From positions 1-37,863 of the forward strand of contig JAKSYS010000611.1 of NCBI GenBank assembly GCA_022925895.1: a stretch of 37,863 nt of DNA, read 5' to 3'. Below are positions 12,480 to 32,986 of this stretch, in pieces. The notes under the pieces are model-generated. The model searched no databases and was not told the origin of the DNA. It saw only the letters and a list, made by a program, of their open reading frames with translations. The translations under genes and the position numbers were made by a program. How positions within the stretch are numbered: the first letter of the stretch is position 1; each line of letters opens with the position of its first letter. This DNA is from Fragilaria crotonensis (lineage: Eukaryota; Bacillariophyta; Fragilariophyceae; Fragilariales; Fragilariaceae).

Positions 12480-12536
12480 CGATTATCACCTTCTGGATGC
12501 TACCTGCACAAGGTACTGTTCAGGCGTATAGGTCGA

Positions 12537-12555
12537 ATGTCCCTGGTACGGACAT
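12537..12555 (+). other. Hairpin in the LINE A 3' UTR
   Basis: ATGTCC (12537-12542) pairs with GGACAT (12550-12555) around a 7-nt loop, about 30 nt before the T run. LINE B has a hairpin in its own 3' UTR, which makes it a candidate reverse-transcriptase recognition structure. Confidence 0.35.
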
Positions 12556-12583
12556 AGCGATAGTACGTTAAATAGATGTTGGG

Positions 12584-12593
12584 TTTTTTTTTT
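12584..12593 (+). other. Poly(T) tail of LINE A
   Basis: Ten T residues on the coding strand close the element directly before the 3' target duplication. Most LINEs end in poly(A) or a short A-rich repeat. LINE B ends the same way in its own coding orientation. Confidence 0.75.
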
Positions 12594-12609
12594 GTTGTAA
12601 CAAACACCA
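12594..12609 (+). repeat. Target-site duplication of LINE A, 3' copy
   Basis: GTTGTAACAAACACCA differs by one base from 3250-3265. It is in frame with the resumed transposase gene (V-V-T-N-T). Confidence 0.8.
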
Positions 12610-15277
12610 AAAAGCCCTCTGTGTTACGCCGCGACATGGTAAACAACATACCGCCTCTTCCTGACGATGAAGAGGATTTGGGATTTGCAGTTACCGATGC
12701 ACACAGTTTGCCATGCGATGACGAAGACGCCATTTTCGACAACGAAAGCAATTGTCTTGACGTGCCTACCTTTGCTTTCCGGCCACCGCAAGAAGGTGCT
12801 GTTTTGTCCAGTAGTGGATTTATGTACACTACTCAACAAAAGTGGACCGTCGCATTGTTGAAATTACTGGACGACATAAATGCTCCTGATTACGCATTTC
12901 GTTTGATTATTGAATGGGCTTTATCCGCCAAAGATGATGGATACAGTTTTCAACCACCTGGCGGTGTTACACGGAATGCAAATGTTGATATTTTATTCAA
13001 GTCTGTACCTAATGCTCCCCTTCTTCGCCCCTCTATTCAACCCGTGCGGCGTGTTGACGGTTCCTCAAGCAACGTGATTGTTTTTGATTTTGTTCCTCAA
13101 CTTCTACGCCTGCTCCAAAACCCCAGTGTCATGAAGCCAGAAAATCTTGCTATCAACTTTAATGCTCCCCTTTTGCGTTATGAAAGTCCTGGCAATGTTC
13201 TTGGTGAAGCATTGTCTGGTAGTGTATACCGTACTGCTTATCAGCGCTTCATCAGCGACCCTTCTCGTCAGCTGTTTGTTCCTATTATTCAATGGATTGA
13301 TCGCACTTCCGTGACAGGAAATGATAGGTTTTCTTTAAAACCTTACATGTTTACGCCCGCAATTTTTACCGAATCATTTCGTCGAACATTCAAAGCTTGG
13401 GGGTATCATGGATTTCTTCCAAAATCAAAAAATTCTCAGCGCAAAACCAAACCAAAAACAAGGTGTCAACATTGGCAACTATCACGCCGAGCTTCGTGTT
13501 GTCTTAAATACATTCCGTTCTGCTGCAACAATCGTCTTGAAATATAACTCTTCCTATTGGACCTAATGGAAGCATTACGGTGGATATTGTTACGTGCATT
13601 TTGTTTGTCATCCAAGACATGCAAGAAGGCGATATGTTGTGTGGTCGATATGGACCACACACCCTTTAATTAAAGGCATTGTCGCTCCTGTGATGTCAGT
13701 TACGACGACCTTGACAATCCAGAGGTTAATTGTACCTTTCTGCTTTCTCGCAATATGGATTTTATCGCTCAAAGTGAAGACAAAGAACTCCGGTCACGTT
13801 GGTCTCAGCACAAGTTGGATAATGCATTCAATCACATGCCACTGGCTGATCCTGTACGTGGAATATTCGGCGCAACTCCTGTGGAAACCATGCACGCGTA
13901 TCGTAAGGGTATGATTGAAATGGTAACCTTTCTTGTTTTGGATAATGTTCCGGCAAGCAAAAGGCATTGCTTGACGATCTTGCATTAAAGTTTCACAAAT
14001 CTCACCGTCAAACTTGGCGAGGTGAATACCCTGCTACTGACTTCACAAATGGCATTACAAATCTGACCAAGATTAGTGCTTCAGAGCGACTCGGTTTGGT
14101 TTTGTTTGTAATCTTGGCGCAATACCATGAAGGGTGGCAAATTTTGGAATCTGCGCTGAAACAACGTACAGATACATCTCTGACTGATGTAGTGGAATTA
14201 CTCGAGGCCATGCTATGTTTTGATGCATGGCTCAACCGAGACACGTTTTGGAATTTAGAAGACGCTGAAACTGCCAAAGAATCAGCACAATTTTCTATCA
14301 AAGTACTGATGGAAATGTGCAGCAACTACCTACCCACAACAAAATCCAACCGCTGGAATTTTCCGAAATTCCACGAGTTACTGCATATTGTTGATGATAT
14401 GTCAAGGTTTGGTGCACCCACCAATTATTGTGCACAACGTCCTGAATCTCTTTTGATTGCCGCCGCAAAGCAACCAGGAAGGCGTGCCCAGAAACGTCAT
14501 CAAGGAATTGATTACGAGCTCCAAGCTGCACAACGTTTGGCTGCTTCAGGTATTATTGAAACAGTTTATGAGAGAATCTTTGACACTCCGTCGCTGTTGT
14601 CACACGAAAACATCACCCCACCAAGCACAAATTCAAACACTACGCAAGACAATAAGAAAACTGCGCAAAGCCCAATTTCGAGCATTTCACAAAGTACGGA
14701 CCTAGCTACCACTTGCACGATCCACCTCGAGCCATCGACCACTGAGCCTGGTAATGTTACTTATCGACAGTGCTGGTCAAGTACCACTAAAGTTGAGCAC
14801 TTGACTTTGCCAACCCCTTTGCTGATTTTCTTATGCGAAAAGTTTGGTCCCCGAGTTCATATTTGCACACAGTACAAACGTGATGCATTCACCTTTCGAT
14901 GTCATCCTGCTTTCCAATCTGGAAATGCAATCTATGATTGGATGTTAGTCAAATTTGAAACCAAAGCAGATGGCAATCAAGAAGCTGGTGTTGATTACTT
15001 CCCATGCAAACTTGTGGCTGTCGTATTCAATAAGGATGCTGTTGTTCCAAACGATGACGACAAATACCGACTTGTTGTTCAATGCACACTCAACCGAACT
15101 GGTGTTAAGTCTGTGTTGCTGACGGAATGGTGGTGGTCGCCTGAATATGTGATTATATCACCAGCCGCCATTTTCAATCCGTGTTTTGTTATCACCATAA
15201 AGGAAGACCAATCTATTGTGATGGAGACATTAGCATACGAGAAGTGGCCAGGAGAATTTACAAACACTAAGTATTAG
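12594..15277 (+). pseudogene. Plavaka/CACTA-like DDE transposase, main part, frameshifted
   Basis: This continues the gene begun at 3052; without LINE A the whole is about 960 codons. The stretch FVPIIQWIDRTSVTG...SLKPYMFTPAIF...FKAWGYHGFLP (13270-13420) resembles the first catalytic-Asp region of Plavaka-type transposases (DKT/DRT, then the host name-like LG/GY-LP block). Next come a possible second Asp region (DMQEGDMLCGRYGPHT near 13615) and a Cys cluster (HCRSCDVSYDDLDNPEVNC near 13680), which together suggest an inserted zinc knuckle. A helical block with VETMHAYRKGMIEMV (13885) follows and may hold the catalytic Glu. Frameshifts occur near 13435, 13540, 13665 and 13970, and a stop interrupts the second frame, so the copy as read is dead. 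The tail after 14600 is Ser/Thr-rich, then a folded-looking C-terminal domain. The family call rests on motif memory and could be another DDE superfamily. Confidence 0.55.
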
Positions 15278-15308: not shown

Positions 15309-16410
15309 TCACTTAGCCCTCTTGGACGGGAGCGTCATAGCCTGAATTCGATTCTTCTTTCCTCCCACGTATCGGAACATAAATCCTCTTCGAAAATCAA
15401 TGAAAGTGCTCTTTTCTGTTTCCGTACAAGTGCAATAGTCCAGAGCTTTTTGACATAATGGAATTGCAACAACTTCGTTAGCATCGTAAATGAATCCTCC
15501 ATGAATGGTAACCGCATGATTACTGTTGCCATCAGAAGCAAGAAGCACACCCACGAATACCACAGTCTCGTTCAATTCATTTTTCCAATCGAAATGTCGT
15601 GGCTTCCAGGCTGGCTGTAACCACTTTGGAAGTACCTCCGAGGCGTAGGTCATAACCTTCTTCAATGCATTAACTGTTCCATGGGCCAACTTTTCTTTTC
15701 CATACTCAGCGATCTTCGTAGCTTCATTGACAAATCCCAGCTCGAATAATGCACTAGCAAAGGAATTTGATACGCATAGATCTTCCCCCTCGTTTTGGAC
15801 AAAATGCACTTTTGGAGCGCCTGTTACCGTCAAATCAGGATGTTGGTCCAGTGATGACTTCTTCCAATCTCCAACAGGTATGTCAACGAATCCTGTTCGA
15901 GTCTCTTTAAGTTCGTTCAGAAATTTTGTTGGAAGTACATTATCAAGAAAATCCAAGTCTTTCTTGACTCGTTTTCCGTCGGCGTTTACCACGCTCCAAT
16001 GAGGAGGAACAGTTATATCTTTTCGTGGAACTTCTTTCTTTTTCGGTTTTTGTTTCTGTGGGAGCGTTTGACGGGTAGGTCCTCTTTCTGTGTCTCTCTC
16101 ATCTCTATGACTTTGTCATAATCAAGAATGTTTCGAGTCTGTTCTGGAACAAATTTTACTCGCGTGATTTTCTTGTTCTCCAGAAACACTTCCATATCAG
16201 CTGGAATCGGAAAATACCTCCCATCGGACTCGAGGTTTAGCACATGGTTGATGACATCGTTAGCAAATCCTGCTTCCTTCCTGAACCACTCTTCTGTGAC
16301 TGGGATATGTTTTCCACGTTATCACCCTCGTCGTCCGTGTACTGCACGCGCCACGAATTTGTTTTCGGAACGCACATACTTAACGCCAGTTACTAACATA
16401 GCCTCGTCAA
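15309..16410 (-). pseudogene. Minus-strand multidomain gene, C-terminal papain-like part
   Basis: This is the last part of the minus gene that begins near 32327. The final frame, counted from a methionine at 15992, has 227 residues. It holds a putative cysteine-protease core: Cys73 in DLCVSNSFASAL, His159 in SNHAVTIHGG, and Asp170/Asn172 in FIYDANE. Cys-helix followed much later by HAV.I...IYDAN is the order expected of papain-like folds. Upstream, in other frames (16013-16410), is a segment with VKYVRSENKFVARAV and EVFLENKKITRVKF, which I do not recognise. A basic stretch follows it (RNKNRKRKK near 16040). Frameshifts lie near 16005, 16300, 16340 and 16400. The protease assignment is an inference from motif spacing and has not been tested by alignment. 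Confidence 0.45.
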
Positions 16411-17570
16411 AAGGTAATCATTTTCGAATTGTCTACGGAAATGTCGTCTTTCTTTCTTCATTGCCTTGAGCAGTTCTGTGTAGTACAACTTGATGATTTC
16501 CTTCTGACTTGTAGATTTCGCTTCTTCCACACTCGAGGTCATGATCTGGCGATACCACTGCAGGTCCATTTGGTGTTGCTCATTCGAACTCCAGTTCCAT
16601 TCAAGGAACCGCTTTTCAACGTACACATCCATTGCATTTGTGTCAATTGGTCTAACTTCATTGCATTTTTCCCACTTTTCGTAATATGCAACAAGCAATT
16701 CCTGAGCAAACGGAGGCGACTCTTGTTCCAATAAGTTTGCTTGACTTTTCGGTTCCATTTCGAGTACTTCTTGAATTCCGAAAAAATGATTAGGATCACC
16801 ACGTCCGACATCTTTCCAGTTTGCTTCCCACGTATTGAATTCCAGCATATCATCTGTTGGTATTTCTAACCAAGGAAGATCTTCTCGTTTCAGCTTCGTT
16901 TGCTGGAACGATTCATGTGCATTTTGTTGAATGGAATTTGTCAACTCACGTCCACTCAACTTTCTCTTCTTGCTTTTTTTACGATAGCTTTTTTCTTGCT
17001 CGTGCACACTGTCTGATTCGGTAGGAAGTTTAGTTAGCTCCATTTGCCCGTCTTCGTGCATGGGATCATCTGCGTCCTTCGGAAATTGAGATAGCTCCAT
17101 TTGCCTGTGTTCTTGATCGTGCACACTGGCTGTGTCGGGAGCAAAGTGAGATAGCTCGGCATCTGTTGGAAATTGATATAGCTCCATTTGCCCGTCTTCC
17201 TGCACGGGATCATCGGTGTTTGTCGGAAATTGAGAATGTTCTATTTGATCCACAACAGTTTCACCTTGTTGTGGACCGTTGTCCTTGGTTTCTGTACTTT
17301 CTTTTTCATCCGCAAGCTTCACTTCAAGGTCAATGAGGAAATCCATTTCGGATCCATTTCCAACTTCAGGAACTTCATTTTCTCAATTCCTTTTTGGTCC
17401 ACATATTCTTTGTTCGACGATTCTTCATCCTCCGAATCCGACGAATCAGTTGATGGGTCCTCATTTGTTTCTTCACTATGTGTCCCTAGCAGTTCTAAAA
17501 GGGTTGAAGCTGCCCTGTCCTTTTCCCCTTCTTCGTGATGCTGAAAATCATTGTGAGGCCATCTGAGCAA
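16393..17570 (-). pseudogene. Minus-strand multidomain gene, acidic repeat region
   Basis: Two overlapping frames, switching near 17340, carry the region between the Ulp1 domain and the C-terminal domain. The first is very acidic (EETNEDPSTDSSDSEDEESS near 17430). The next contains a degenerate repeat built on EDGQMELxxFPTDxD, at least four times between 17020 and 17240. A basic cluster (RKKSKKRKL near 16970) could be a nuclear localisation signal. The remainder (16393-16930) looks folded and Trp-rich (EFNTWEANWKDV, FLEWNWSSNEQ) without a known motif. No separate start is needed because coding sense runs in from the Ulp1 part. I infer a linker or docking region. Confidence 0.45.
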
Positions 17571-18072
17571 GGCTTTGTTTTTTCGTAGCCAGTTTGATTG
17601 CTGTGCATCTCTTCAGTGGGACGAACTGAAACCCTTCTTGGTATAGTAATCCAATACAATTCTGCAAGTCGATCAAAAAGTACAAAGAATTCCTCCCGCA
17701 GATTTGCCAGGTAACAATCTTTTCTGAATTACCGGTCAATTTATTGTTGTGTAATGTTCTTGGAAAATCGATGAAAAACTCAGGCTTATCGTCTGCTGCC
17801 ACACCCTCAATCTCCTCAATAAATATATTGTAACGAGCAAAGGTTTTGCAGTACCTTTCATCATGCTCATTATTTTTCCCAACAACGTCACGGAGAATTG
17901 TGGCAACTGCAGCAAGAACACCGAACGCACAATTGTGTGTATCTATCTGCTTTGGTAACCAGCGCCGCCCAGTAATCCTCATGGCCGGGAAGTACCGAGT
18001 ACCCCTCAAATAATGTTTTGAAGACGAATGAAAAACTTCGAGCATTTTCATTGGAACATCTTTAAATGAGGG
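17548..18072 (-). pseudogene. Ulp1/C48-like protease, C-terminal half with nucleophile Cys
   Basis: Reading on the minus strand from the DIRS junction (18072), the frame contains KQIDTHNCAFGVLAAVATIL. The Gln (17949-17947) and Cys (17931-17929), six residues apart, match the oxyanion Gln and nucleophile Cys of Ulp1/SENP peptidases (Q-x5-C, here QIDTHNC). The catalytic His and the candidate Asp lie on the far side of the DIRS-like insertion, at 24736 and 24697. The junction codons are continuous: the Ala codon ending at 24563 is followed by the Pro codon at 18072-18070 if 18073-24562 is removed. Ulp1 enzymes process SUMO precursors and remove SUMO. Transposon copies are known, but their substrate is not predictable from this sequence. 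The frame ends with a stop near 17548, where a shift leads into the acidic region. Confidence 0.65.
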
Positions 18073-18073
18073 G

Positions 18074-18230
18074 GATTAACTAGAGTAGTGTCTTTGTCGA
18101 TTCGAGTTCGTTCGGATTGTGAGCAATTCGTATCTTGTGTTGTGTTGTGTCGTGGTGTTCGTCTGTCTGTGTCTCGTGTTCGTCTGTCTGATGGCGACTG
18201 CCCGTCCTTTCCCGATCTTCGGACATGCCA
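18074..18230. repeat. 157-bp terminal direct repeat of the DIRS-like element, left copy
   Basis: Identical by eye to 24406-24562 and in the same orientation. It begins GATTAACTAGAG and ends CGGACATGCCA, and contains short TGTG and GTCTGTCTG repeats. As the 3' end of the minus-strand element it may hold the end-recombination site. Confidence 0.9.
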
Positions 18231-18594
18231 CGAAATAAATTCCGAGTCTTGTCCAAATTTCTCTAAGTCCGTTTAGTCGGATGAGTCGTCTGCTTCGTGG
18301 TTTCGTCGTACCGTTGTCTCGCACTGTCGCGTCGATTCGTGTGTTGTCTGTGGTCATTCTCGTTTCTCTTTGTGCTCGTGAGACTAGTAGAAATAAATAG
18401 ATGGCATCGGAATCTGGTCCTAATAGTTTTGTCTCTCTCTGGTTCGTCTCGCGGTGTCGGTCCCGTGATAGTTATCTAGCGGGGTCCGTCGCGCGATTGT
18501 GAGTCGACCTGGTTTCCGCCATTTTCCGGTTGTCGTTCGTCCGCAGAATCTGGGGCGATCGTGTAGAAAGATTGTCGACTCGTCATGCGTGCGG
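18231..18594. other. DIRS-like 3' non-coding region
   Basis: About 364 bp between the recombinase stop and the left repeat. I see no open frame of note, no inverted copy of the terminal repeat and no second copy of any flanking block, so the B1-A2-B2 arrangement of split-repeat elements is not apparent. Confidence 0.4.
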
Positions 18595-19700
18595 CTACTC
18601 GAGTGTCGAGTCCGGCACTTGAATTCGGAGGTATCTCATGAACGTCTGGCTTCGCCACCCCACCATCTGAATCGTCTCACTTGGAACTCCGGCGAGGTGC
18701 ATGGCCATCGCGGCGCCTGATCTGATCGAGTGAGTGCCGATGCCACTCGCCTGGAGGCCAAGCCTCTCCTCCCTGCGAGTCGTCGCCATCCTGAGCTGCC
18801 TCAGTATGGACTTGGAAGAGATGTGTTGGGGTTCGTCTGAGTCCTGCGTCCTGACGGCGTTAATCTTCGGGTTCGTCCGTGAATGGCAATCGTAACTCCG
18901 TACCCTCGTCGTCAGGTCCGCTAGCACGCGGACGGGGCAGATGTCCGTTTGTCCCTGCCTGTCGTTTCGATGCTGAGTCACTGTCGCGCCTTTGTCCCCG
19001 TTCTTTGTCGCCGGAAGGTGATCGACACGGTGTCGGCATTCTCCAGTTGTCCTCGGTCGGTTGTCTGCAGGTCCTGTCCCTTCTGTCGGAAACGAACGTC
19101 GTCCACTCTGATCACTGATGTCGTCCGTCGGCTTCCGACATCGGAATATTCGCACGACCTCATGGCGAAAAAGAACGCGACCACCACAAGTTGTCCAATA
19201 GCGATGTCCGTCTCGTTTCTTGCCCAGGATCGAACCTTTCGAATCACCTCTAACGGCAGCGCCTGCTGTGGGGTAGGTCCTGGGTCCGTCGGCGTAACGT
19301 TTCAGTTGTAAAGCCAGAAGGGGTCGAGTCGTCCGGCGGCGTCGTGGATTGGGCTCTCAAATTTGTTAAGCCTGAAGGCCTGAGCCACACCGTCGAGGGT
19401 GGCACGAATGGAACCGGACAAGGGTCCATTGCCAGCTTCCTGAGGTTGTCGGGAGCGAAGCCGTCCGTCCCGAAGGGCGGCGGCGAAGCAGGCGAACGTT
19501 CTGCTTTCGCTTCGTCCGAGTCCTTGAGAAAAGGCTCCTCCGACTCCGTCGATTCGTCCGAGGAATCTTTCGTAACAGCGCCAGCTGCTATCGCGCTTGG
19601 CACGGGTTGAGTCGGCAAGAGCTGCGTTTGGGCAGCAGCTGCAGCCAGCCTCCAATCTGCGAAATAAGGGCTGGCCGCAAAGGGATGATCCTGAAGTTCT
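18595..19700 (-). pseudogene. Tyrosine recombinase of the DIRS-like element
   Basis: The coding sense is spread over several frames on the minus strand and ends at the stop at 18595. The catalytic residues are visible. An Arg lies in FFFAMRSCEYSDV (near 19170). A basic motif is at the turn near 19010 (SITFRRQ, then KNGDKGATVTQHR after a frame change). The H-x-x-R box is THSIRSGAAMAMHLAG (near 18710). GWRS follows, and the presumed nucleophile Tyr is in FMRYLR near 18625. The upstream part (19300-19700) looks like the N-terminal core-binding domain, with GSIRATLDGVAQAFRLNKF. The enzyme would integrate the circular cDNA by strand exchange, which explains the lack of a target duplication. At least two frameshifts interrupt it. 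The N-terminal boundary is approximate. Confidence 0.75.
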
Positions 19701-21800
19701 GTGGAACAAACGGTGAGCAGTTTTTCGTGATCAAGTCTGTCAGTGCCGCGTCGTCTAGAGCGAAATCTCGGGAGAGCATGTCCGCCACCTTGTTCTCTTT
19801 CCTGGGAACCACTGCGTGTAGTGGTCTATCTCGTGCGTGAGGCAGAAATCAGCGAACGCTCGGGCTATCGTCAGGTGAAGCGGACAATCGTCGTTGAAGT
19901 TCGACTTAGCAAGCCATCCCGCTGCTGAGGTGCTGTCTCCTGACTGAGCAGAACGTCTTCGTCCGTCCACGCGGCCCCTTCGTGGAATTCCACGATCATC
20001 CCCACAAAGGCAGCAAGGAACTCGAGAGTGTTTAGGGTCGCTCGCCCCAGCAGGTGCTCTGGTAGCTGATATCGCCACGCCAGGCCGCTCTTGAGGCAGT
20101 AGCCTCCGATGCCTTGTGGGCATGCGTCCACCCTCACTATGCGCGTCGGCCACCGGCAAACCAGCCTGTTGATCGAGATACCTCGCGACGCCTTCTGAAG
20201 GAAAGCCTTCCACAGAATCAGGTCGTCCAGTTGGGGTTTGGTCAGTCTCGCCTTCCCGGCCTGCTTCGAACGCTCGCAGGCCTTGTATAGCCTTCCCATA
20301 AAGTGTCTTGCGTAAGGGATGACGTAGGCGGCGTGGCTAAAACGTCCGAGGGTCGTCTCTAGGTCTCTCGTCGTCACGAAGGCATGTCTGTGCGTCAGCA
20401 TCCTGTCAACGGCTTGCGTCCAGCTCATGTGCTTATCGTGAGGCAGTGCGACGACGAAGCGGCGTGTCCACGATCCATCCGAGGATCATCTTCCTCTCGG
20501 ATGGTTTGGCCTCGGCCAGGAACTTTGGGATCGCAAGGATATCGTCTCTGGGAAAAGTCTCCTTAACCTCGGGGTCGCAAGGCCTCCCGACCAGGTGGAG
20601 CGCCAGCGGATCGCGGCAGCGCTCTTTCTGCGTCGCGGGGTTGAAGGCCCCAAAATGTCGTCCAGGTAGCAGTCGAAGCGAGGGAGGTCGTCGTAGGGTG
20701 GATAGTTCACTGCGAAGTAGTCCGCCTTGCCGAAAACACTCATTTTGTCGACCGACCCTTTGTCATTGTCCACTGCCCCTTCGGTGTCCAGGAGGTGCTG
20801 GTGCGGCGAGTGGTAGACGCTCGGATCCCAGTCGTCCCTGCGGACAAGGTCGTTTGCCAAGTCCGTGATCATCTCCGACACGTCGCTCCATTGCGATGGG
20901 TTTGGCGCTCCACCGAACGTCATCCTCAGCGCCACTAACAGCAGGTCGTCGATACTCGTGCAGGACTTCATGGCTGTGGCTGCTTTGAGATGGATTCGTC
21001 TGTAGGCGGATTTGCAGTCGACCTTCGTCATCCAGATAGGCTCGTCTGGCCATAGTTGGCGCAGGAACGAGATGTGGTACATGAGTCTGCTGAATGCTTT
21101 TCCGAAACGTGCTTCTGTCAGTTGGGATGTGTCCACGCGTTCATTTACGCTTCGTCCTGCCACTCCGCTCGGGCTGAATGACTGGTCATGTGTCAGTCGG
21201 AGTTTCTCTATTGAATTTCCTTTCTCGTCGATCGACGTCTGCGCGACCATCCCCAGAGGCGCGACCTCGCATCCCTTGATCTCTAAGGCGGCTTCGCGGC
21301 AGTGGTAGCTGCCAACCCTTGAGGCTTCGTCCTTCAGCATGGATATCAACTTTGCCTCGTGGCCTCGGGCCGATTTGTGATTGCCGCGAGCTAAGTTGGC
21401 GCGCACGTCCGCGAGGCGGTCAGAATCCGAGATCTCGCGAAGCGGAACTCGGCCCCTTCGGAGATGCGCTCCTGAAAACGCGGCCAGAGGGGTGGGCGGA
21501 CAGGAGCGGGGCGAGAAGTTCGGTGGGGCGAAACTCGGATCCCGGCGTCAGGGCGCTGAACGGCTGGGCCCGAAGGGCGGCGTCGAGGTCGAGGGCGTAC
21601 CGTTTGAGCACCGCGAGGTTGTGGCGGGCGGCGTCGTGCGTCCAGTCGAAGCGAAACTCCGTCGCGTGGGTGCGCGGTTGGCCGGAGTGCAAAATAGTGG
21701 CAAGGGCATCGGCCAGGCGTGGTTCGGGAGTCGGGAACGGCGAGTCGACGTTCGGGAGCGGATCGTCGGCAATGGCACCAACGATGGGAACTTACCGGGA
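19590..21800 (-). pseudogene. Reverse transcriptase-RNase H of the DIRS-like element
   Basis: The start is not certain; coding sense is visible from about 21800. The main reverse transcriptase frame (21406-20486) has motif A WMTKVDCKSAYRRIHL (Asp at residue 130 of that frame), motif B LRMTFGGAPNPSQW (near 164) and motif C FDCYLDDILG (YLDD at 247-250). After a frameshift near 20650 comes the connection region, then RNase H: RVDACPQGIGGY (near 20130), NTLEFLAAF (near 20020), GDSTSAAGWLAKSNF (near 19920) and KENKVADMLSRDF (near 19780). Together these supply the usual D-E-D-D residues. The YLDD box, RNase H order and position before a tyrosine recombinase are characteristic of DIRS elements. Frame changes near 21410, 20650, 19950 and 19810 disable it as read. 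Confidence 0.8.
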
Positions 21801-22179
21801 AGCGGGCGTGGCGTGTCTGCGAGGGCTGATGTCGGCGCGTCGTGGGCGTCTCCGGGCGACAATGCGCGCGCCACGGAGTGGTCGGTCGGTGGCGAGTCGA
21901 GGGCGGGAGCGTAGCGCTCCAGGCCCGACTTCGTTTCGTGACGGGTCGTCGCGGGCTGGCGAGATGCGGGCGTCGGCGACGTGGCGGGGCGAGAAGGTTC
22001 GTGCGCGTGGGTTCCCGCGGGACTGTCTCGGGCGGCAGATTCCGATAAAGTCCGGGGCGTCCTACGTGGCGTCTGTTGTGGAACTCGGCCGTCGACCGTT
22101 CCTGGTCGAACGCCCATTGCGACGGCTGTGCGACGAAGGCGGGCTGGAAGTAAGCAGATGCAGAGGGTCCTAATTTTGT

Positions 22180-24368
22180 TTTCTTGCTGGGCGGCGTCGC
22201 GTCGGACGAGGGGCGGCGCATGCGCGCCCGGCACTGCTCTATCCACGCTCGTACGGCGGTCGTCTGTTCGGTCGTGAGGGCGACGTGCGAGGCGCTCAAG
22301 AAACAGCTCTTGACGCACTTCCCGTTTAGGTGCCACCTGCAGCACATGTTCGGGATCGGTCCACTTCGGACGTGATCGAGGAACACCTGCCAAGTGTCGT
22401 TCGCGTCTCTCGGGAAAGGTCCTGCTGTGGGTTTGTGACTGCGTCCGCGGGTTGCCCGCGACGTCCGGCTCGAGCGCTCCGGCGGCGGCTACAGGCTGCG
22501 AGTCGCCCTTTGGTCGACTCCACGTCCCAGCCGCTCCTTGAGGAAGTCGCAGGCCGGGAAGACAAAGGCGCCGTCCTCCAACTGCTGCCGGGTGGACCTG
22601 ATTTCTAGGAGTGCTGGGTTGATCTCGTCCTCGTGTTCGACTCCAGCGCAGAGAACTAGGTATTGTTGCATGCGTTTTCGATGAACCAACCTAACCTGCA
22701 CGCGGCTGAGGGGTCAGCGTGCGCTAGCTGGCGGAGCGTCGCCAGTGTGGAGCCGACCGCCCTGGTCAGGAAACGGCTCCACTCGTCCAACATGTGTGTG
22801 AGCGGGAATTGGCTCCGAAGGAGCTCCAGCACTCCGCTCATGTTCTCGATAAGCCGCGCGAGTTCGTGAAAATCTTTCGGCACCGTGAAGTTGAGTTTTG
22901 TCATGCTCTTGATGTCCTTCTCCGAGAAGCCCGTGGTCGTGTCGGTCGTCTTGAGTTGCATTTGCACAAGGGTGCTGGCGTGATCAGAGGCTTCTCGCCC
23001 GATCGCTGCTGCTCGGGCGAACGTCTGGGGACCGCAACAGAAGAGGCTGAAGGCCCCTGGCCGGTCAGGTGTGTCGGCCGTGAAAGAAGCGGTGCGGATT
23101 GCGGCGCAGAAGCCCATGGGAATGAACGCGTCTCGACCTTTGGTGTTCCTCAAGAAGTGGTGGATGTGGTTTTGTACGTAGGCCACGTTGCTAAGCGTCA
23201 GGATGTCCGAGAAAGACTGGACCGGGCGGCTGCGAATCATCCTGTCGGCGTCCCTTTCGGACACGAAAAGGACCATTCGTTTCGTCGACGGCGGGAAAGA
23301 GTCAAAGCCTGTCTTCGACGTTTGGGGGGACGAGGTCGCTGCGTTTGCTGCCTGTCGCTCCAGTAACGTTGACAGGTTTCGAATGGCGTCCTCTGTGCGT
23401 CCTGGCGTGCTGGCATGGTCGTCCGTCCGAATGAGGCTCCTAGCTCTGACCGCCAGATGCTTGAGGTGTAGCGATTTCGCCCATTCGTCCGATCGTTTGG
23501 AGTATGCGTTTGATGCCGCCACCCCTCGCTTTGTCGGTCCCGGGGTCCTCCTCGAGTTTACCGCTACGCTGAGGACCCACCGCGGGATGTAAGAGGCTGC
23601 CTCCGCGCGGATGGTTGCTCTGGACGGGTCTGGGTCCTCGCTCGCTCTCTGTTTAATGGCGTTGACGATCAGTAGGGCGAGCTCCTCTGGCGCGGTGACG
23701 TAAGTGTCCATGATGGCGGCTGCGATGAAGGCCGGCACCGGGACGGTGGGCTTCATCGTGAACCCGACGACCGTGACGTCGTCTGTGTCGTCCTCGCTCG
23801 CTTCGACTGGCTTGCTTGGCTTCGCCCGGTGCTTCGTTCCGCTTCCTTTCTTCGGTCGTCCTCTGGTTGCAGTCGGCAGGGTGCCGGCTGGCTCGGCTTC
23901 GCGCGTGGCTCCGGTGCTGACGCCTGACACCTGGGCACGTGTCGTCAGAGATTCATTGATCGCCGCCAGTACGTCCGACGTAGAATTCCACGAGAGCATC
24001 CTCGACCAATCAAAAGGCGTTCCGATGTGTCGCTCTACGACCTGTTTCGTGTCGACCGCCATGGCGGCGGCGAAGCCGCCAGCCCCCATCAGTGCCCAAA
24101 GGGCGTTCGTCCCGTCGTTGAGTCCATCGTCAGCGTCGTGGTGGAAGTGGTGAAAGAGTCGGATGACTCCGTGCGTGTTTACCATAAGGTGGGCGACTTC
24201 CGGAGAGCACAAGTGTACGAATCCTGTAGAATTTGTACTGACCGAGTTCGTCTTCGAATTCAAAGCGCTGAGCTTTTCGACGACCTCCCACTGGTCGAGC
24301 TTCCTGAAAACGTCCAACCACGTCAAGGTCATCGTCATCGGTGAGCGAGCGTCGTCTGACCCCTCCAT
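22180..24368 (-). pseudogene. Gag-like ORF1 of the DIRS-like element
   Basis: ATG at 24368 lies 38 bp inside the right terminal repeat. A 570-codon frame runs to 22656. It has an acidic/basic linker near residues 155-200 (GRPKKGSGTKHRAKPSKP, then EDDTDD) and a long helical C-terminal region. Sense continues in another frame (LCAGVEHEDEINPALLEIR near 22640). After a further shift it reaches a Cys-rich finger, MCCRWHLNGKCVKSCFLSASH near 22320, which resembles the C-terminal zinc finger of DIRS gag proteins. That would bind element RNA. A stretch of Arg/Pro-rich translation after it probably lies past the true end. The start is supported by the short leader between repeat and ATG. Confidence 0.65.
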
Positions 24369-24405
24369 TGCGTCTGTGGTTCAAGTCGGGTCGGGGGAGA
24401 GGCCA

Positions 24406-24562
24406 GATTAACTAGAGTAGTGTCTTTGTCGATTCGAGTTCGTTCGGATTGTGAGCAATTCGTATCTTGTGTTGTGTTGTGTCGTGGTGTTCGTCTGTCT
24501 GTGTCTCGTGTTCGTCTGTCTGATGGCGACTGCCCGTCCTTTCCCGATCTTCGGACATGCCA
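24406..24562. repeat. 157-bp terminal direct repeat of the DIRS-like element, right copy
   Basis: Identical to 18074-18230. It sits 38 bp upstream of the gag-like ATG on the minus strand, so it probably contains the promoter and transcript start. Confidence 0.9.
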
Positions 24563-25403
24563 GGCGAGATTCAACAGAAACAAAATGCCATGTTTCATTG
24601 GCATATCCCCAGATCCGCTTGGTTCATAAGGACAATAACGCAAAAATGTCGGAACTAAGTTTCGAGATTCAACAGGGGTTTCCGGGCCAAACGTATCAAT
24701 ACAACTCGCATTGAAGATGAAGGTTGCCGTCCAGTGATTTTCTGCGCAGAAGGGAAATACGATCAATTTCTTGGTGAGTATGCATGGGTTTGACCGAAGT
24801 ACTTTTTCGACCACAAAATTCATAGTCTTGTAATGCAATTCTTCCTTTTCGTGAAGCTTCAATGATATTGCAAGCTCTGAACATAGTTTCTGAGTGAGTG
24901 CATCGTGTTCCTTAAGTCGTTCCTTCACGTTACAATATTCTTCCCACTTGGGGTGATCCTCATTTATAGAAAAGTGAAGTCATTCACATTTCCTTTGATG
25001 TGCGAAGGGTAGCACGTTGTGTCTTCAAAAATTGTAATTGCAATCTTGCATTCACATAATCAGTACGCTTCAGAAGCCAATGACACATTCTTTGTATAAC
25101 TGCATGGAATGATGGTAACATGATCATTGTATCGTCCATCAGCCATGATGACAGCAAGCATCATGTCCAATTCACCGAGGCTGATGTAACCAGTTCCATT
25201 CTTCTCGCTATGCTGGATGCGCCGAATGGACAACATCTCGCCACCGACACAAAATGCGTCAGGTGGGCATAAAGGATCCTGGAGGGGGTGTGGTAGCAAG
25301 ACACGGATGTGACTAAGCCCGGATGTCGCCGCAACAAAATCATTGTACAGTAACCTCGTGGTTACATCTCTTTGCTGCTGTGCTGTCGGCGGGTAACGGC
25401 ACC
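24563..25403 (-). pseudogene. Ulp1/C48-like protease, N-terminal half with catalytic His
   Basis: On the minus strand the frame running in from LINE B (WCRYPPTAQQQRD at 25403) continues to a stop near 25060. Coding sense then resumes through two or more frame changes (25060-24960) as NEDHPKWEEYCNVKERLKEHD. From 24928 it encodes LIVFPFCAENHWTATFIFNASCID. The His-Trp pair (His at 24736-24734) and a downstream Asp (24697-24695) match the HW...D part of the Ulp1 triad. The nucleophile Cys follows beyond the DIRS-like insert at 17931. The protein is interrupted after FLLNLA at 24563. Upstream residues (LLYNDFVAATSGLSHIRVLL) probably belong to the N-terminal lobe or a linker domain. Confidence 0.6.
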
Positions 25404-25420
25404 ACATGACAGGCAGAGCA
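25404..25420. repeat. Target-site duplication of LINE B, left copy
   Basis: The 17-bp ACATGACAGGCAGAGCA is identical to 30825-30841. The last A is shared with the tail. On the minus strand it encodes A-L-P-V-M of the interrupted gene. Confidence 0.85.
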
Positions 25421-25432
25421 AAAAAAAAAAAA
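25420..25432 (-). other. Poly(T) tail of LINE B
   Basis: Thirteen A on the plus strand read as thirteen T at the 3' end of the minus-strand element. The preceding bases (AGCACGTTAATTAGAT in coding sense) match the end of LINE A (AGTACGTTAAATAGAT). Confidence 0.75.
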
Positions 25433-25499
25433 CTAGAAATCTAATTAACGTGCTGCCGCTTTGCCCAAGACGAAAAGCAGTCGACTCACACGGATAGGC

Positions 25500-25519
25500 A
25501 CTGCACTGGGATGTGCAGT
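25500..25519 (-). other. Hairpin in the LINE B 3' UTR
   Basis: ACTGCAC (25500-25506) pairs with GTGCAGT (25513-25519) around a 6-nt loop, about 70 nt before the T tail. The sequence differs from the LINE A hairpin but the setting is the same. Confidence 0.35.
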
Positions 25520-25551
25520 AGCTATCGTCGCTGTGATTCCGGGTATTGGAT

Positions 25552-28500
25552 CTACTGTGCGTTGAAATACTCACGGATGGACCTCATACCATTCGTTGCG
25601 CGCTGTTTGACTCGTCTGTAACTTTCCTTAAAGATGGGAGCGTTGATCGATAACCAATTCTTAACAACTCCCAGAGAATGCTGTTCATGGTCTCCCACCT
25701 CCCGGTGCAGTAGTTTTATGCGTTCGCCTCATACATGGAGCGATGACGATAAATCTCGGTTAATTGGGAGCGCACTTCGCGTTTGGATGCTTCTGCTTTG
25801 GTACGTTCATCATGTCCATGAACTTCCAGATTTCGTTGCTTCAGAGGGTGTACCATCTTTCCCAAACGTATAAGATTAAATTTGCCTGCCATGCCGCACT
25901 GCATCCGTCCTTGTCGTCGGCGCCCTGTTGACTCTCGCAATACCGACGCTGATGTTGGCTCCAGGCGGTACTAAATCTCCCAAGAATAATTGACTCCAAC
26001 CAATGTTGTTTTGTTGACATATAATACTACGCAGAGTGGGATGGTATTGTTCCGGTGACAAGGTAATCTCCTTGGTCGTCGAATTTAACCATTGTCGAAG
26101 ACCGTCCATCATCAAGCCGCACAACAGAGGGTGAGTATCGGACCGGATACAGAAATCTCGAATGCCTGTCAGAAATTTATTGCGCCACTCCACTCGGGTT
26201 GTATGTGCACATCGGAGAATGTGAAGATAATCCTCGTTATTCGATCCACAAAGGATGCATTGACGTGTACCTCCATCGAATTTATTTGCTCGCGCATGGG
26301 TGGGCAAAATGCCGTGCAAAGCTTGACGACATGAGTATGAGGAACTGAAGTCCTGTTTATCGCTGTCGCGTGCGCATCCCAATTGATTGATTGAAGAGTT
26401 GATTCAGTCCATGCGTTCTTTTCGCGGATGTAATTGAGTAGGGGTTTAGCGGATGCCTCGTGAAGTAAGACGGATGAATATTTGCCAGTTACTGTTCCAT
26501 CTGGGAGGAGTAAGTGCGCTCGGGCTAAGGGAGACATGAGTACGAACGGGCGTCGAGCTCCATATTCCAGGTTGTACATTCCTGCCTGTGCGTCGGCATC
26601 GACGTTCAGCTGACCGAGAAGATCAAGGTTTTGATAAGACCTTTGCTTGTCCTGGTGCCCTTTGACGTGTCGGAGTTTGACGTGGTAGTCCTTGTAGTGC
26701 GGATTGGATCTCGATTAGAACGTCCCAGTCGGGGCGTAAACAATCGAGCACAACGGTCCCTTCATCGAGGTCCACCGGTTCCTCCTCTTCTTGAGGATCA
26801 ATATCCCCGATCTGCAGGGTATCCAGGACGCTTTGACTATCGGTCGCCAAAATTCCTTTCCACTGTTCCTGCATCCCTGTAAATTCTTTGACCCGAATTA
26901 AGAATCGAAGGAAAGACAGGAGCCCATATGCTTCAGCTCTATATGAGTGCGGTCGTCGTCCTCGTGCCGGGCCCATCCCAAATGCGACTCGTTCATTCGT
27001 GCGCGAGCTTAAAACCCACCCGTAGGATCCATATTGCTCCTTTGTAACAGACCCGTCGCTGACGGCTCTAAAACCGTGAGTTAAGTCGAGACAAAGCGAA
27101 AAGGGTCCACTGTGAGGGAGACTTGACGCAATAGGTCCGTTTCCCATGGTTCAAGTGTGGAAATAAACAAATCGAAGGTAGCTGTCGCTGAAGGAGGTAC
27201 GTGGGGAATCTGGATGATGGTTGCTGGAGTGCCTTTTATGCACCATACTCCGTTTGGTCCCATTTCCACTTCGATTGGTCGCGATCGTTCAGGCAGCTGT
27301 TCGTATCTCCGAAGACCTGACGTGGCTGATGGGCGATACCGGTTGGATCCATTTTGTCTGAAGACTGCGTACGATCCTGTCTCTGTGCGAATGAACATAG
27401 AACGGCGATACTTGTACGCGAAAAATTCGAAACGATGATCTGAAAGGATGAAGCCAGGCTCCGAGAGGTTGCAAAGATGTCCTCGGAGTCGCTCCAGATT
27501 CGATTTGCGGATTGCCATAACTTCCACTCTTTCTCGGACGGGCGATCTTGATTTATGGTGTGCCATCGTGTGCGGCTGCTATACAGCGAGGATGTACCGC
27601 GCAGAAAACATGGGTCGAGCTCCAGTCCGTTTGGTTTCGCTATGTCGGACAATGTGACTGCCTGGAGGTAAAGTCGGCAGTAGTTCAATCTTCTTATTTC
27701 CGAAGGGGAGAATCGATTCGCCTGAAGAATCATATCCATCAAATGCCTGTCCTGTTCGCGCTGCGGCTGTGGGACGCGTGGGTTGTCAAGGTGAAGTGAT
27801 GCTGAGATGGACGCAAGAAAAGTACGAAGACTTCTGATCCATTTCGATTCGAGGTGGGGAAGTGGGACTTCTACTCGTTCGAGAACCGAGAAAGACATTC
27901 CTACAGAGAGATGTAGCCATGCCATCGTGCATTGGAGAAGTTTACCCACTGATGTTTGTGTCCTCCAATGGCGAAGGAAATAGGTGGTTTGTGAGATACC
28001 TTGTTGGACAGTGAGGTGACGAAACTCCGCTCCTCCCAGATCTCTCGGTCCATACAGCACTTCGGATTTTGTGTTGCGATTGAACCCGCATTTTGCAGTG
28101 ATGATTGCCATTGCCCTAGTTTGGATAGCTCTCAATTGGGAATTGGAAAGGAAGGAGGATGTCAACGGGTATGCCACGGCGGGTATGTAACAAGAGCGGT
28201 AATATGTCCACGCTTCCTCGCGAGTAAAGTGAGTCGACCAGAGGAATTCAGTAATTGTATCGCTTTTGTGTTTGAGTTGTCTGAATTGCGTTTTCTGTAA
28301 TCCGCAAGGCTCTTTGTAATGACCGAGAGTCTTATGTGCAACCGATGGTGGAAGATAATCCAAGGTTTGGACCGTGCCCGTGAGAGGGTCGATGATTTGC
28401 AGTGGTGGTATCTCGGTTTGAATGTTCGAGAGAACCGGTGCTCCTTGAGCCGAAAATTTCCAATACATCACATGGTATGAACATTTGGACAACTCCAGCG

Positions 28501-30823
28501 CTCCGCCTGTTGCTTGTAAAAGTGTTGACCATTCGATAGCATTTTGCTTCGCTTTATAAACCATGGCGCGAAGAGTATTGGTGTTTTCTGGTTCAAAGAA
28601 CGAGTTCACTTGGCCGTTACTGTCGTCGACAAAGCCGATCATCGAGACCTTGTTTGGATTTGACCAATCTGGGTTGCAGTATTGAGCTGTCGCTGCCTTC
28701 GATTCATAGCAATCATACAATATACTCGACATGAAACACCATATCATTGGCGAGTTACCGCTCCCTTGGCCTGTGCCATAAATCGGCATTTCGGGAGAAT
28801 GCGAATACGAAGAATCCGACAATCCAAGCTCCGTCCGAACGTGATATTTGGCATTGAGGAGAGTGTTTCCGTTGGATTGAGTTGCGGATTTTGCCACACC
28901 GAATCTGCGACTCGCGATCATTGCCAAATTGGGTATGATACGGTCATAACACGCGCTAGCATCATAGTTGGTTTGAAGAAACATTCGTCTGCTCAGCCGA
29001 GAGATTTCAAACTGCAATTCTTCTATCATGACCGGATCCACGGCGTTTCGTCGTGGTCGCGAACCATATTGGCCGTCATTTAATTGGTTCAATGCCTCGG
29101 ATTGGTACAACGCCACCCTCCACTTGATTCCTAACATGAGATTGAAATCTGCCTCGTATATATGGATGACTCTGGTTCGATGAATCTTGACGCTACCGGG
29201 GTCTTTGAACAGAATTGTATTAGCAATATTTTGCCAGCGACGAAACGAGTATCCTCTTTCCAGTGCATAATTAAGCAACGATAAATGCAAATTTGCTAAG
29301 AATTGTTGCATATAGTCGTATTCTGCTTTGAGAGCAAGTTGTCGTTTGTGTTCCTCTGTTTTCTCGTCGTCTAGCCTTGCAGACGGGTCTAAAGGGGGGA
29401 CATTGGAGTACTTGTGTTTTGCAAACAAGGCTTTGTAATGCCCTAAGTGCATACCCGATGGTGAAGTGGTAGTGGATTCTCTCCATGCTCGGAGTTTTCC
29501 TTGGAATTCTTCAAGGGAAACGGTAGGGTATGTTTGCAGTGAAGCGATCTCGTGCGTTTGCTTTAGGTGTTGAAGCAGCATTCGTACCGACTCCTGATGC
29601 CCGTCCAGTTGGTAGTTCCCGTCGAGTATTAGTTCTGCATTTGGTGAATCCCACAAAACCCAAGTCTTCTGCTAGCGGATCCACGGTAAACGGGGTGCCA
29701 TGTGCTTGTCCGAAATGTTGCCGGTTTCGACGTTGAAGATTTTCCACAATCTCGGAAGGAATATCGATAGTCTGCCAATCAGTGCATGTTTTTGGATCGG
29801 TTGCCGGTGGTCGAGGAATCTCGAGTCTGGTTACACCCTGTCGTTGCCCTTTCTCTTTTGCTGCTTTTATTTTCTCGGTTACTCGCTTCACTTTTTCGTT
29901 CCTTTTTAATCGACGTAACAATGTGGCGTGTTTTTTGTCAGCTTTAAGCATAGATCGATCGAGTTCCTGGATACGTTCATCTCTTTCTTGATCCCGTTGG
30001 CGATAACTGTCCACAACCAGTTTGTCAATCTCGGCCTGCGTTTCCCGGAGTTTCTGTTTGCATTGTTGCATGGAAGTCGGGAGCTGTATATCTAGGTTCC
30101 CGGATGTTATATGTTTCGTTATGATTCGGGAGTGGTCTAATCCGGTACGATGCATAGTCATCCATTTCTTCAATATGACTTTTCGTAAACGAGCTTGACT
30201 TAACGCGACTGACCACGCCGGTTCTCTGAACTGCTTAGTGTTCTTTTCCGCATCCAGGCTAGCTTTCAAAACATCTGAATCGAGACGTTCAGCGAAAGCA
30301 TGTCTGTCGCCTGGCAACGACAATTGATCCGATCGACGTTGAGCGTTCCTCTGCATCAAATAGTCATATTTCAACTTGATATACTGCGTCACTTGCTCAA
30401 TGTTGTTGGATTTTAACGTCCTTTGCGAGTGGGGTGCTAGTTTTTGGGTCATATTTCCAAATAGCTTGTCATTATCCAGATCGAAGTAATAGGCTCGGTG
30501 ATCTGTTGCAAACCGTTCGTTAAACGCTTCGTAACCGCAAGAGAGAAGCGCATTTGCAACTCTTTGGGTAGCAAGTCCATAATCTAAGCACTTTCTCCCC
30601 TGGAATAAGTTGCAGGTGGCTTGTGTTGGTGCCGAGTCTGCATCATGTTAAGAAGGTGAAGTTCAGCAGCTATCTGACTCATACCGTCAATATCCGAACC
30701 AAATACTTCGTTGAAATCGCCCACGAGGATCAGCTCTTCCCCTTGGGAAATTCGTTCCTGCAGAAACTGTCGAAGATCGCGTTTAAATGCTTTGCGAGGA
30801 CTCAACGAATCGTTTGATTGAGT
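25552..30823 (-). pseudogene. LINE B ORF2: partial endonuclease, reverse transcriptase, RNase H
   Basis: The frame enters at 30823 inside the endonuclease domain (SPRKAFKRDLRQF, then VGDFNEVFG near 30720) and ends with a stop at 25552 after IREYFNAQ. The reverse transcriptase is intact over 29656-27236: TTTSPSGMHLGHYKAL (near 29465), NYDASACYDRIIPN (near 28960), YGTGQGSGNSPMIW (near 28770) and MIGFVDDSNGQ (near 28640). RNase H follows: VSDGSVTKEQ (near 27060), ATDSQS (near 26845) and, after a frame change, KGHQDK...LNVDADAQAG (near 26640-26590). A Cys/His motif CILCGSNNEDYLHILRC lies near 26260-26210. Frameshifts near 30590, 30480, 29650, 27390, 26680, 26340 and 25700 break it. Many positions differ from LINE A at the protein level, so these are different families or old copies. 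Confidence 0.85.
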
Positions 30824-30824
30824 T

Positions 30825-30841
30825 ACATGACAGGCAGAGCA
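30825..30841. repeat. Target-site duplication of LINE B, right copy
   Basis: ACATGACAGGCAGAGCA, identical to 25404-25420. It marks the upstream (5') side of the minus-strand LINE. Confidence 0.85.
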
Positions 30842-30876
30842 GTGGCATCACCATCAATACAAACAGCAGCATCAAC

Positions 30877-30990
30877 ATCAATAACTGATGTTGAACCTTT
30901 CACTGGCGTCAGAATGGCATCAGGGGCATCAACATCAATAACTGATGTAGAACCTTTCACTGTCGTCACAATGGCATCAGGGGCATCAAC
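30877..30990 (-). repeat. 57-bp tandem repeat encoding VIDVDAPDAI units
   Basis: Two near-identical 57-bp units (30877-30933 and 30934-30990) plus partial copies on both sides are in frame with the minus gene. Each encodes 19 residues on the pattern VIDVDAPDAIxTxVKGSTS. The VIDVD core next to acidic and Ser/Thr residues resembles SUMO-interacting motifs. Confidence 0.8.
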
Positions 30991-32327
30991 ATCAATAACA
31001 TCAGCAGGTGGAGCTTCAGTTCCTTTTGATGTTGAAACTTCAAATGTTGCTATAGGAGTCTCGACGTCAATGGAATCTGCATGTTCAGTTTGCACTTTCC
31101 TTGCAGCTTCCAGAGCATCACCGTCTTCTGTCGCTGGTGTGTTTGTGTTCCCTTGGAGACGAGACGATACAGGACATTGTCGAAGGTGGCACAGGTACGG
31201 TAACCATTCTTTTTCCAAGTTAGAGATACCTTGAAAAAAATTTTGGGTGGAGAGTGGACCAAGTTGTTGCGCAGTCCCACTTCGTTGATATCAAGGAAAC
31301 CAATCGATTTGATAAATGCAAATGAGATGGAATCAATTGCATTTACCTGCATGAAAATGTCAATCGTAATTTCACTGTTTTTTGTTGCTGTTTGCGTTTG
31401 CACAGTACGCAGTTCCGTATCCAGCGTTGCTCTCCGATTATCAAAAGCGCACCTTTTGATAATTAACTTCATCAGGAAAGAACCAATTCCTTTTCGACGC
31501 CACGATGAGAATAGGTGTGCGGGGAAGGGTCCCATGTCACGGACACCTAACCATCGAACGAATGCTGTCCCTGGTTTCTCATCATAACAAACACGGAAAG
31601 TCGTTGCTGCCACAACAATTGTATTTTTGTTACGCACAAAAGAATTAGGCAACAGTGATTTTGCCTTTTGCCTGAAAGCAATCAAAGCAATTGTCTGATC
31701 GACTTTCAATCCGTCGGATACGATGACCTGTTGTTCCTCGTTTAGTGAAAATGTCGTACTGTAGAAATTGAATAACATGCGATGCGCCCATTCTTGTAAA
31801 CTCTCGTGCTGCTTTGACGGTGGCAGTTTTTTCTCGCTCGATTGATTAGGTTTGTCCGGTACAGAGCTTGGGTTTAAAAAAATAACATCGTAGCCCCACC
31901 GGAATTGCTTGTTTTCTGGCTGTTTGTGAATAACCTCCAACCAGTTGAGGTCAGTCGTCAATTTTGAAAATACGGAAAGGCGCATTGCTGTCAATGGGGT
32001 TTTGTGGATGTTTGCGTATACATCGTGGCTTTTTTGAGGCGTGGGACTGGTCCCATTTCGCACTTTACATGTATGCTCCCTAAATTCGTCAGCCTCCAAA
32101 TACTGGTACAAATTCTCAAGGTGATCATTTGTACTAAAAATGTCCAAGGGCAATCCTTGATTCGAAATCATAGCTTTGTGCTGCTTCGTCAGCGTTGATT
32201 GAGGAACGGTACCAGCACACAGTTTGTGTGTAGATTCAGCTGAATCTAGTTTCGGTTGCCTATGAACTCCGTGGAGACAATACGATCTTGGTGATCCACT
32301 GGTGAGGCACGACTGGTTCGGAAAGCG

Positions 32328-32986
32328 CTATTACTGCGCAACCTCGCAGGTGACCAGGTGGAAGCACTTCAGAAAGCGGCAAGGACCCTGTTACCGCTTC
32401 ACAACTAACGATACGAAGCACACAGCTTGAACGGAAGGCGTGATTGTACTATTGATCTGGGGGATCAAGCGGAGGCTTCGGAATTGACGAACAAAAGAGA
32501 TGAACACGCGTTCGTGTGATCGATGAAACGAAGTGTGAAGTGACAAAAACCATTTCGTACTACGGAGCGGTGTATGCATAGCTCGAATTCATGAAACGTA
32601 GAAACCTGGTATATTCGCCAATTAAAAAAATCTGAACTGTCGACTTGCTAAACCGGCGTATGTACTGTTGCAGGACATATGTACATCGTACATCAATGAT
32701 GTCGTATCGTACCATTATCCTAGAAAACATACGGCGACCTATGCTGTTCACAAATATCACGCGCGGCGGCCGGCGGCGGCTGCCTTGGATCTCGCAACTA
32801 GTACAGAATGGTACTGGACCTACTGCTGATTTACGTCGACTCCATGATCACCCTCACTCGTAAAAAAAAGCTCATTTCGGTGTGCTATCGAAGTTCAAGT
32901 TTTTGAAGATATCACGTGTGCATTCTTCAACAAAGGAGAAGGTATCAAACTGCCTTTGCGGTGATCGTTGTCGTTTAAATTTGATA
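32328..32986. other. Intergenic region between divergent genes
   Basis: No convincing gene. Stops block the minus frame at 32328-32333. The stretch would hold the promoters of the minus-strand multidomain gene and the plus-strand SANT-like gene. It includes a C/G-rich run (GGCGGCCGGCGGCGGC near 32765). The right end of the DNA transposon should lie in or beyond here, but I could not find a terminal inverted repeat by eye. Confidence 0.4.

Follow-up and report, generated by a model that had tools for sequence, protein, structure and literature searches.

Does the long minus-strand gene that lies tail to tail with a transposase on a Fragilaria crotonensis contig exist as one unit, and what might it do for the mobile element around it? 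The stretch analysed (the window) comprised 37,863 nucleotides, positions 1 to 37,863 of contig JAKSYS010000611.1 (G000:C572:1-37863), from a genome of 62 Mb in 881 contigs; own-genome searches covered these contigs, and copy labels (C449, C728 and so on) denote contigs of the same genome. Light-harvesting proteins were matched at 61 places in it; for one of these, taken as a sample, the best PDB matches were chains called LHCI (entry 9vfj), followed by violaxanthin and fucoxanthin chlorophyll a/c proteins, which agrees with an algal host, perhaps a stramenopile. A single broken Plavaka-type DNA transposon, with CATCTAAG termini and a TA duplication, was found to span 2587-37553 of the window. 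An earlier note, made from the letters of this DNA, had described a minus-strand gene joining a GNAT-like acetyltransferase, a Ulp1-like protease and a papain-like domain. The pieces of this gene were recovered as listed below, and their fusion is real and recurs within the transposon, with dozens of relatives in the genome.

30825..32327, minus strand: GNAT domain (SWRRKGIGSF at 31476-31505) and the following linker; GNAT-like piece 31050-32327, Acetyltransf_1 E 0.016-0.026, under the cut-off
25060..25440, minus strand: N-terminal part of the Ulp1-like domain; the element's part ends at about 25420; 34% to C449
24554..24979, minus strand: first half of the Ulp1-like domain with HW (open reading frame piece 24335-24979), cut by a retroelement
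17548..18075, minus strand: second half of the Ulp1-like domain with Q-x5-C, aligned with 14 relatives
16393..17382, minus strand: linker region (MID), from its open reading frame and comparison with relatives
15309..16115, minus strand: C-terminal Cys/His domain (DLCVSNSFASALF ... HAVTIHGGFIYDANE), at least 99 places in the genome

In the window copy the linker and the C-terminal domain stood in different open reading frames (ORFs), and the frame was broken at points beyond the two insertions across which the earlier note had read a polypeptide of about 1,700 residues. The joints were open in relatives. GNAT, the Ulp1-like domain and the linker were read in one frame of 1,414 amino acids (aa) in C449 and, as far as the linker start, in 1,145 aa in C872; GNAT and the Ulp1-like domain shared frames of 914 aa (C686), 947 aa (C454) and 1,077 aa (C2), and C408 carried the first half of the Ulp1-like domain inside a frame of 614 aa. 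Towards the other end, C259 held the end of the Ulp1-like domain, the linker and the C-terminal domain in 821 aa, and the last two were joined in frames of 494-702 aa in C220, C733, C686, C2 (702 aa), C314, C131 and C157. The frames read over the fusion gene needed no introns. A single polypeptide could thus be pieced together from the less damaged copies at about 1,640 codons (about 1,300 + 338 residues in C449).

At least 62 places in the genome matched the GNAT query in tblastn searches, at least 99 the C-terminal domain and at least 131 the transposase piece at 13946-15277; these numbers are far beyond chance. The locus count took in every C-terminal row (99) and every transposase row (131); 5 of the 62 GNAT rows (short N-terminal matches only) and 108 of 150 Ulp1 rows (matching the retroelement end of the query) were dropped. 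The upstream distance allowed was 7 kb, or 20 kb for C572 and C264, where GNAT and the C-terminal domain lie further apart (in C572 through insertions). The counts are lower bounds, the queries having come from a single diverged and broken copy. There were 72 loci with the C-terminal domain; 58 had an opposite-strand transposase within 2 kb downstream, at a median gap of 151 bp, and none had one on the same strand. GNAT lay upstream at 37 of the 72 and the Ulp1-like domain at 38; all three neighbours were present at 25 and none of the three at 8. The earlier note had asked for several copies of the same order beside a transposase between inverted repeats, and many were found.

The convergent partner was read on the plus strand in four pieces.

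2797..3315, plus strand: N-terminal zinc-finger-like region of the transposase (MSKRRRKQQGC..C..H); the ORF end runs into an inserted long interspersed nuclear element (LINE)
12576..13547, plus strand: part of the Plavaka-like transposase that carries the first catalytic Asp (WIDRTSVTG); PF18759 E 3.3e-4, 20.4 bits
13674..13985, plus strand: part of the Plavaka-like transposase that carries C(2)C (RHCRSC), motif by eye
13946..15277, plus strand: C-terminal part of the Plavaka-like transposase, containing HELLH and the last Glu (YELQ), motifs by eye

The stop of the last frame lay 31 bp from that of the fusion gene, in agreement with the earlier note. The window piece scored below the cut-off of PF18759 (Plavaka; 20.4 vs 26.3 bits), and the ORF of C728 exceeded it (E 4.4e-9, 36.4 bits, with 868 of its 1,038 aa scanned); the same family gave 80 places in a search of the genome. 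By eye, ORF 2797-3315 resembled the N-terminus of the C728 transposase, and the motifs RHCRAC, FHELKH and YELQ of C728 corresponded to RHCRSC, FHELLH and YELQ in the window pieces, the residue order being Asp, Asp, C(2)C, H(3)H, Glu. In the available part of PMC12730594 (2025), C(2)C and H(3)H are placed between the second Asp and the last Glu in Plavaka transposases of the CMCT clade.

The ends of the element were as follows.

2587..2606, plus strand: left terminal inverted repeat CATCTAAGAGTGCAGATCCG, preceded by TA; 18/20 match to the right end
37534..37553, minus strand: right terminal inverted repeat, followed by TA, giving a 2-bp target-site duplication

By a rough estimate, an inverted-repeat pair of such quality could occur by chance within 38 kb; the call in the window is supported by the CATCTAAG start that it shares with copies C449, C728, C686, C2 and C454. 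In 6/6 copies with both ends read, the termini were CATCTAAG..CTTAGATG (CATCT..AGATG) and a 2-bp target duplication was present (TA in the window, CA in C449, GA in C728, AA in C686, TA in C2 and TT in C454). Less damaged copies were 11.6-12.2 kb long; C449, C686 and C728 were 89-99% alike over about 11.6 kb and C2 and C454 99.7% alike across 12.2 kb, and similarity between copies stopped at the terminal repeats wherever both sides were read. With fungal PlavakaB, as described in the portion of PMC12730594 at hand (2-3 bp target duplications, CATCA..TGATG ends), the element shares the Pfam Plavaka transposase, CATC..GATG termini, 2-bp duplications and the C(2)C/H(3)H pattern, but its termini begin with CATCT instead of CATCA, and its host, having light-harvesting proteins, is not a fungus. 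Thus, the element is a cut-and-paste transposon of the Plavaka type (CMCT clade) and, because its termini are CATCT..AGATG, not PlavakaB as defined for fungi.

In the GNAT domain of the fusion protein, the acetyl-CoA loop pointed out in the earlier note was conserved in 11 aligned rows (SWRRxGxG, with W209, R211 and G215 invariant and R210 and G213 nearly so), as were, almost without exception, F271, G276 and F277 of the F...GF motif. At E values up to 1, Pfam reported Acetyltransf_7 in 7/11 rows and Acetyltransf_10 and Acetyltransf_1 in 5 each (best 2.3e-5). The window's own domain stayed below the Pfam cut-off, and relatives passed it (C131, 24.8 vs 23.6 bits; the remote C312, 24.7 vs 20.7 bits). 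Against PDB, the profile matched structures of human NAA50 (E 0.0022), with which the loop (R-x-x-G-x-G) and F...GF align, though over about 60 core positions only. No confirmed relatives of the domain were found in viral contigs. As judged from sequence, the identification as a GNAT domain is solid.

The middle domain may work like, or derive from, a Ulp1 domain, an assignment based on motifs and weak profile scores. Pfam family C48 was reported in 3/10 rows (best E 0.013), and a search of the middle domain's own profile against PDB gave chance matches to chaperonin only. When hhalign compared the domain with a set made up of the genome's own canonical Ulp1 proteins and a fragment of SENP1, E was 0.002 (0.0018 and 0.025 for two subsets; 0.69 and 0.82 for two control profiles); the HW strand and the Q..C motif were aligned, and YCS fell opposite YDS. 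The Ulp1 triad claimed earlier held in part: His was present in 14/14 rows and Gln and Cys in 15/15, several rows being near-identical copies, but the column of the catalytic Asp was occupied by Cys (RYC) in 14/14 rows and by Asp in none. Since Asp is replaced by Cys, this part may be a Cys-His dyad enzyme or a modifier-binding module. Ordinary Ulp1 genes were also considered; a PF02902 search gave 44 such places in the genome, some within or beside transposase frames of Mutator-like elements (MULEs), and the element's domain was absent from that match set.

In the C-terminal domain, C89, H175/H180, D186, N188 and a Glu were invariant in 14/14 rows, some of them near-identical and others reaching down to 27-29% identity. 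As a sequence pattern, Cys is followed by His and then by Asp/Asn; the order Cys ... HAVTIH ... YDANE is one that we take to be that of thiol proteases or related papain-kind enzymes. The papain-like core proposed earlier was thus retained as to its residues; as to its fold, the profile had 0 matches in PDB, and Pfam and NCBIfam gave single-row chance matches only. No confirmed relatives of this domain were detected in viral contigs or in contigs of prokaryotic genomes.

The search with the C-terminal domain also matched C312, C317 and C687 at 32-36% identity, and upstream of these matches a GNAT-like region, a Ulp1-like region and a zinc finger resembling PHD were seen by eye. With the loci that they led to, they form a second clade of relatives (clade B).

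L025 (C312) 3315-7893, L023 (C687), L024 (C317) and C55: remote relatives with GNAT-like and Ulp1-like regions, PHD-like finger, linker and C-terminal domain (C55 known from search matches only)
L033 (C860), L034 (C388; MULE outside the locus) and L039 (C183): MULE-associated GNAT/Ulp1-like loci, protease His lost

In C312 and C687 the convergent neighbour ('YPERNREV'/'HPERNREV') was unlike the Plavaka transposase and had no match in a Pfam scan. The GNAT/Ulp1-like protein of C312 matched 25 contigs, itself included. Four of them (C312, C317, C687 and C55) have the C-terminal domain; at 13 of the other 21 loci (counted by eye) a MULE transposase in the same orientation lay about 3-6.5 kb upstream. 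DUF6824 was found in the follow-on ORF of C860 and C388, and a scan of that of C183 gave no DUF6824 match. Between the two clades, hhalign gave the GNAT alignment an E of 2e-7 and a probability of 94%; the Ulp1 stretch was collinear, with E 0.009 and a probability of 4%. By eye, C312, C317, C388, C860 and C183 had lost the Ulp1 His (DW, NW, SW) and kept the Asp (YDP/FDP). Because a related pair is found with MULEs in the same genome, the GNAT/Ulp1-like pair looks, from its sequence relatives, like a transferable helper module. We further propose, tentatively and at somewhat less than an even chance, that the unrelated superfamilies Plavaka/CMCT and Mutator share such a module in one alga-like lineage, GNAT being fused in it to a Ulp1-like reader or protease and the C-terminal unit (Cys/His domain, PHD-like finger or DUF6824) being exchangeable.

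Two clade-B loci also held an opposite-strand ORF (L034:7379-8878 and L039:4083-4643). That of L034 resembled a 2-oxoglutarate dioxygenase by eye (HLDDD ... RYHHCLSSR); its best PDB match was a translation factor at E 0.22, with oxidoreductases at 0.33-1.4, and a Pfam scan gave no match.

What the fusion protein might do for its element has to be weighed against several rival explanations. The minus-strand gene would be the second main gene of the Plavaka-type transposon, a helper in transposition or against silencing that acts through modification of host proteins, a reading to which we give about an even chance. The protein would alter protein modifications, acting either in trans or on the transposase complex: the GNAT part may acetylate a chromatin, repair or transposase target, the Ulp1-like part may bind or remove a ubiquitin-like modifier of the SUMO type, and the element would stay expressed, or transposition intermediates would be tolerated. 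Acetylation is the better supported half of this reading. When C131 was compared with C140, C259 or C872, the ratio of nonsynonymous to synonymous substitution (dN/dS) was 0.13-0.15 in GNAT and 0.07-0.09 in the C-terminal domain; in the second Ulp1-like half it was 0.13-0.15 (C131 vs C140 and C872 only). Identities of the C-terminal domain and of the transposase were correlated (rho 0.61) over 36 pairs, which came from 9 copies and are not independent, and the gene kept a constant place and order in subfamilies whose transposases were mostly 41-62% alike.

A number of observations weigh against a helper of this kind. The whole gene was not in one open frame in any copy fetched, and 18 of 77 transposase loci had no C-terminal domain within 6 kb; the helper gene is not universal among the elements, or was missed in fragments. 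Behind the low dN/dS values stands effectively a single comparison, C131 against one group, made close to saturation (dS 1.2-1.6). For the His-bearing first Ulp1-like half, comparison was confined to close pairs (0.22-1.36), and very close pairs reached 1.89, at least partly through frameshifted stretches in the alignments. The hhalign probability for Ulp1 was 2-15% (14% at E 0.002), the profiles being small and shallow, and the PF02902 search of the genome included no Ulp1-like domain of the element among its matches. The C-terminal domain matched no known family. Single-sequence structure models had a predicted local distance difference test (pLDDT) score of 37 for the window's GNAT sequence, too poor for use, and of 42 for the C-terminal domain, too poor for a fold search. 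Protease activity of the Ulp1-like part is doubtful, because the Asp is absent and the His is lost in the clade-B relatives read.

These last points lead to a rather unlikely alternative, in which GNAT alone would be an enzyme and the Ulp1-like part, perhaps together with the C-terminal domain, would be catalytically dead, acting as a scaffold or as a reader of ubiquitin-like modifiers. The uniform Cys in the Asp column would fit it, as would the clade-B relatives, which keep the Asp without the His, and GNAT is the clearest feature common to both clades (E 2e-7 vs 0.009); but every aligned row on the Plavaka side retained His, Gln and Cys, dN/dS is low in the second half of the domain, and Cys-His dyads can be active. 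If, on the other hand, one or both Cys domains cut the chain into GNAT, Ulp1-like and linker products, the gene would encode a self-processing polyprotein. A chain that has long, variable linkers and two candidate thiol-protease domains is what such a polyprotein might look like, but self-cleavage by the Ulp1-like part would not be expected were that domain dead, and we regard this as improbable.

That the element took up a host gene and carries it as a passenger of no use to itself appears very improbable. Capture of genes by transposons does occur (review PMC13317346, as far as its available text goes), but the constant place and order of this gene across such divergent subfamilies, and its low dN/dS in one comparison, argue against it. 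It is scarcely credible that separate genes or chance ORFs were wrongly joined: the window pieces do lie in different frames, but open frames in relatives cross every joint.

The helper reading has precedents in other transposons. According to the consulted part of PMC12730594, an accessory gene stands beside the transposase in some fungal Plavaka families; it encodes a TET/JBP dioxygenase in some fungal elements and a GNAT/Ulp1-like/Cys-His protein here; such dioxygenases pass among fungal transposon superfamilies and have been proposed to allow escape from silencing. A shared GNAT-Ulp1-like module, if confirmed, would be the acetylation/SUMO counterpart of these enzymes. The portion of PMC2836005 at hand describes Mutator-like elements of plants and animals that carry a Ulp1 domain, recognisable as such there, whereas a diverged C48-like domain is fused to GNAT here. 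It also describes Ginger1, which resembles the present elements in bearing ubiquitin/SUMO-type thiol-protease domains (Ulp1, OTU) and PHD, seen here too, but has its Ulp1, OTU or PHD domains C-terminal on the transposase itself; a role of the Ulp1/OTU domains of Ginger1 and Mutator elements in transposition or repair is proposed there. The word acetyltransferase is absent from the text of PMC2836005, and no earlier description of a GNAT/Ulp1 transposon fusion was found in the open-access PMC literature, a scope outside which most subscription journals lie. Ulp1/OTU companions being already known, the addition would be an acetyltransferase that forms one protein with a Ulp1-like domain, is kept at low dN/dS and is related to proteins found with a second superfamily. 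If the reading is right, acetylation and SUMO-type modification of host proteins would be a control point for transposons to manage.

The remaining features of the window comprised three insertions and two further genes.

3267..12593 (approximate), plus strand: inserted LINE (endonuclease/reverse transcriptase) splitting the transposase; Exo_endo_phos 7.8e-10
18074..24562, minus strand: inserted retroelement of the tyrosine-recombinase type, its 157-bp direct repeats being identical; recombinase-like and reverse transcriptase-like ORFs by eye
25421..30824, minus strand: inserted LINE, apparently 5'-truncated, with a 17-bp target-site duplication ACATGACAGGCAGAGCA
32864..34633, plus strand: divergent gene with a DUF6818-like N-terminus (PF20681 E 0.0012, below the cut-off) and an acidic low-complexity middle
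35701..36976, plus strand: second divergent gene, of a family without a name; 98 places in the genome

Both insertions recognised in the earlier note lie in the fusion gene, and the LINE in the transposase is a third. This LINE is flanked by a near-identical 16-bp duplication GTTGYAACAAACACCA, seen by eye, with an exact repeat AACAAACACCA at 3255/12599. A Pfam scan of three ORFs of the retroelement gave no match, and its tyrosine-recombinase label is one that we presume from ORFs of this kind. Its repeat region had many near-identical matches elsewhere in the genome, and because of these its insertion is probably recent. A Pfam scan of the second LINE likewise gave no match; by eye, its ORFs at 27236-29671 and 29511-30647 resembled those of the first. 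Both LINEs had a T-run at the end of the coding strand and flanking duplications of 16-17 bp, and they appeared related by eye. The gene at 35701-36976 gave a chance-level match only in a Pfam scan; its places in the genome were often on contigs with copies of the element.

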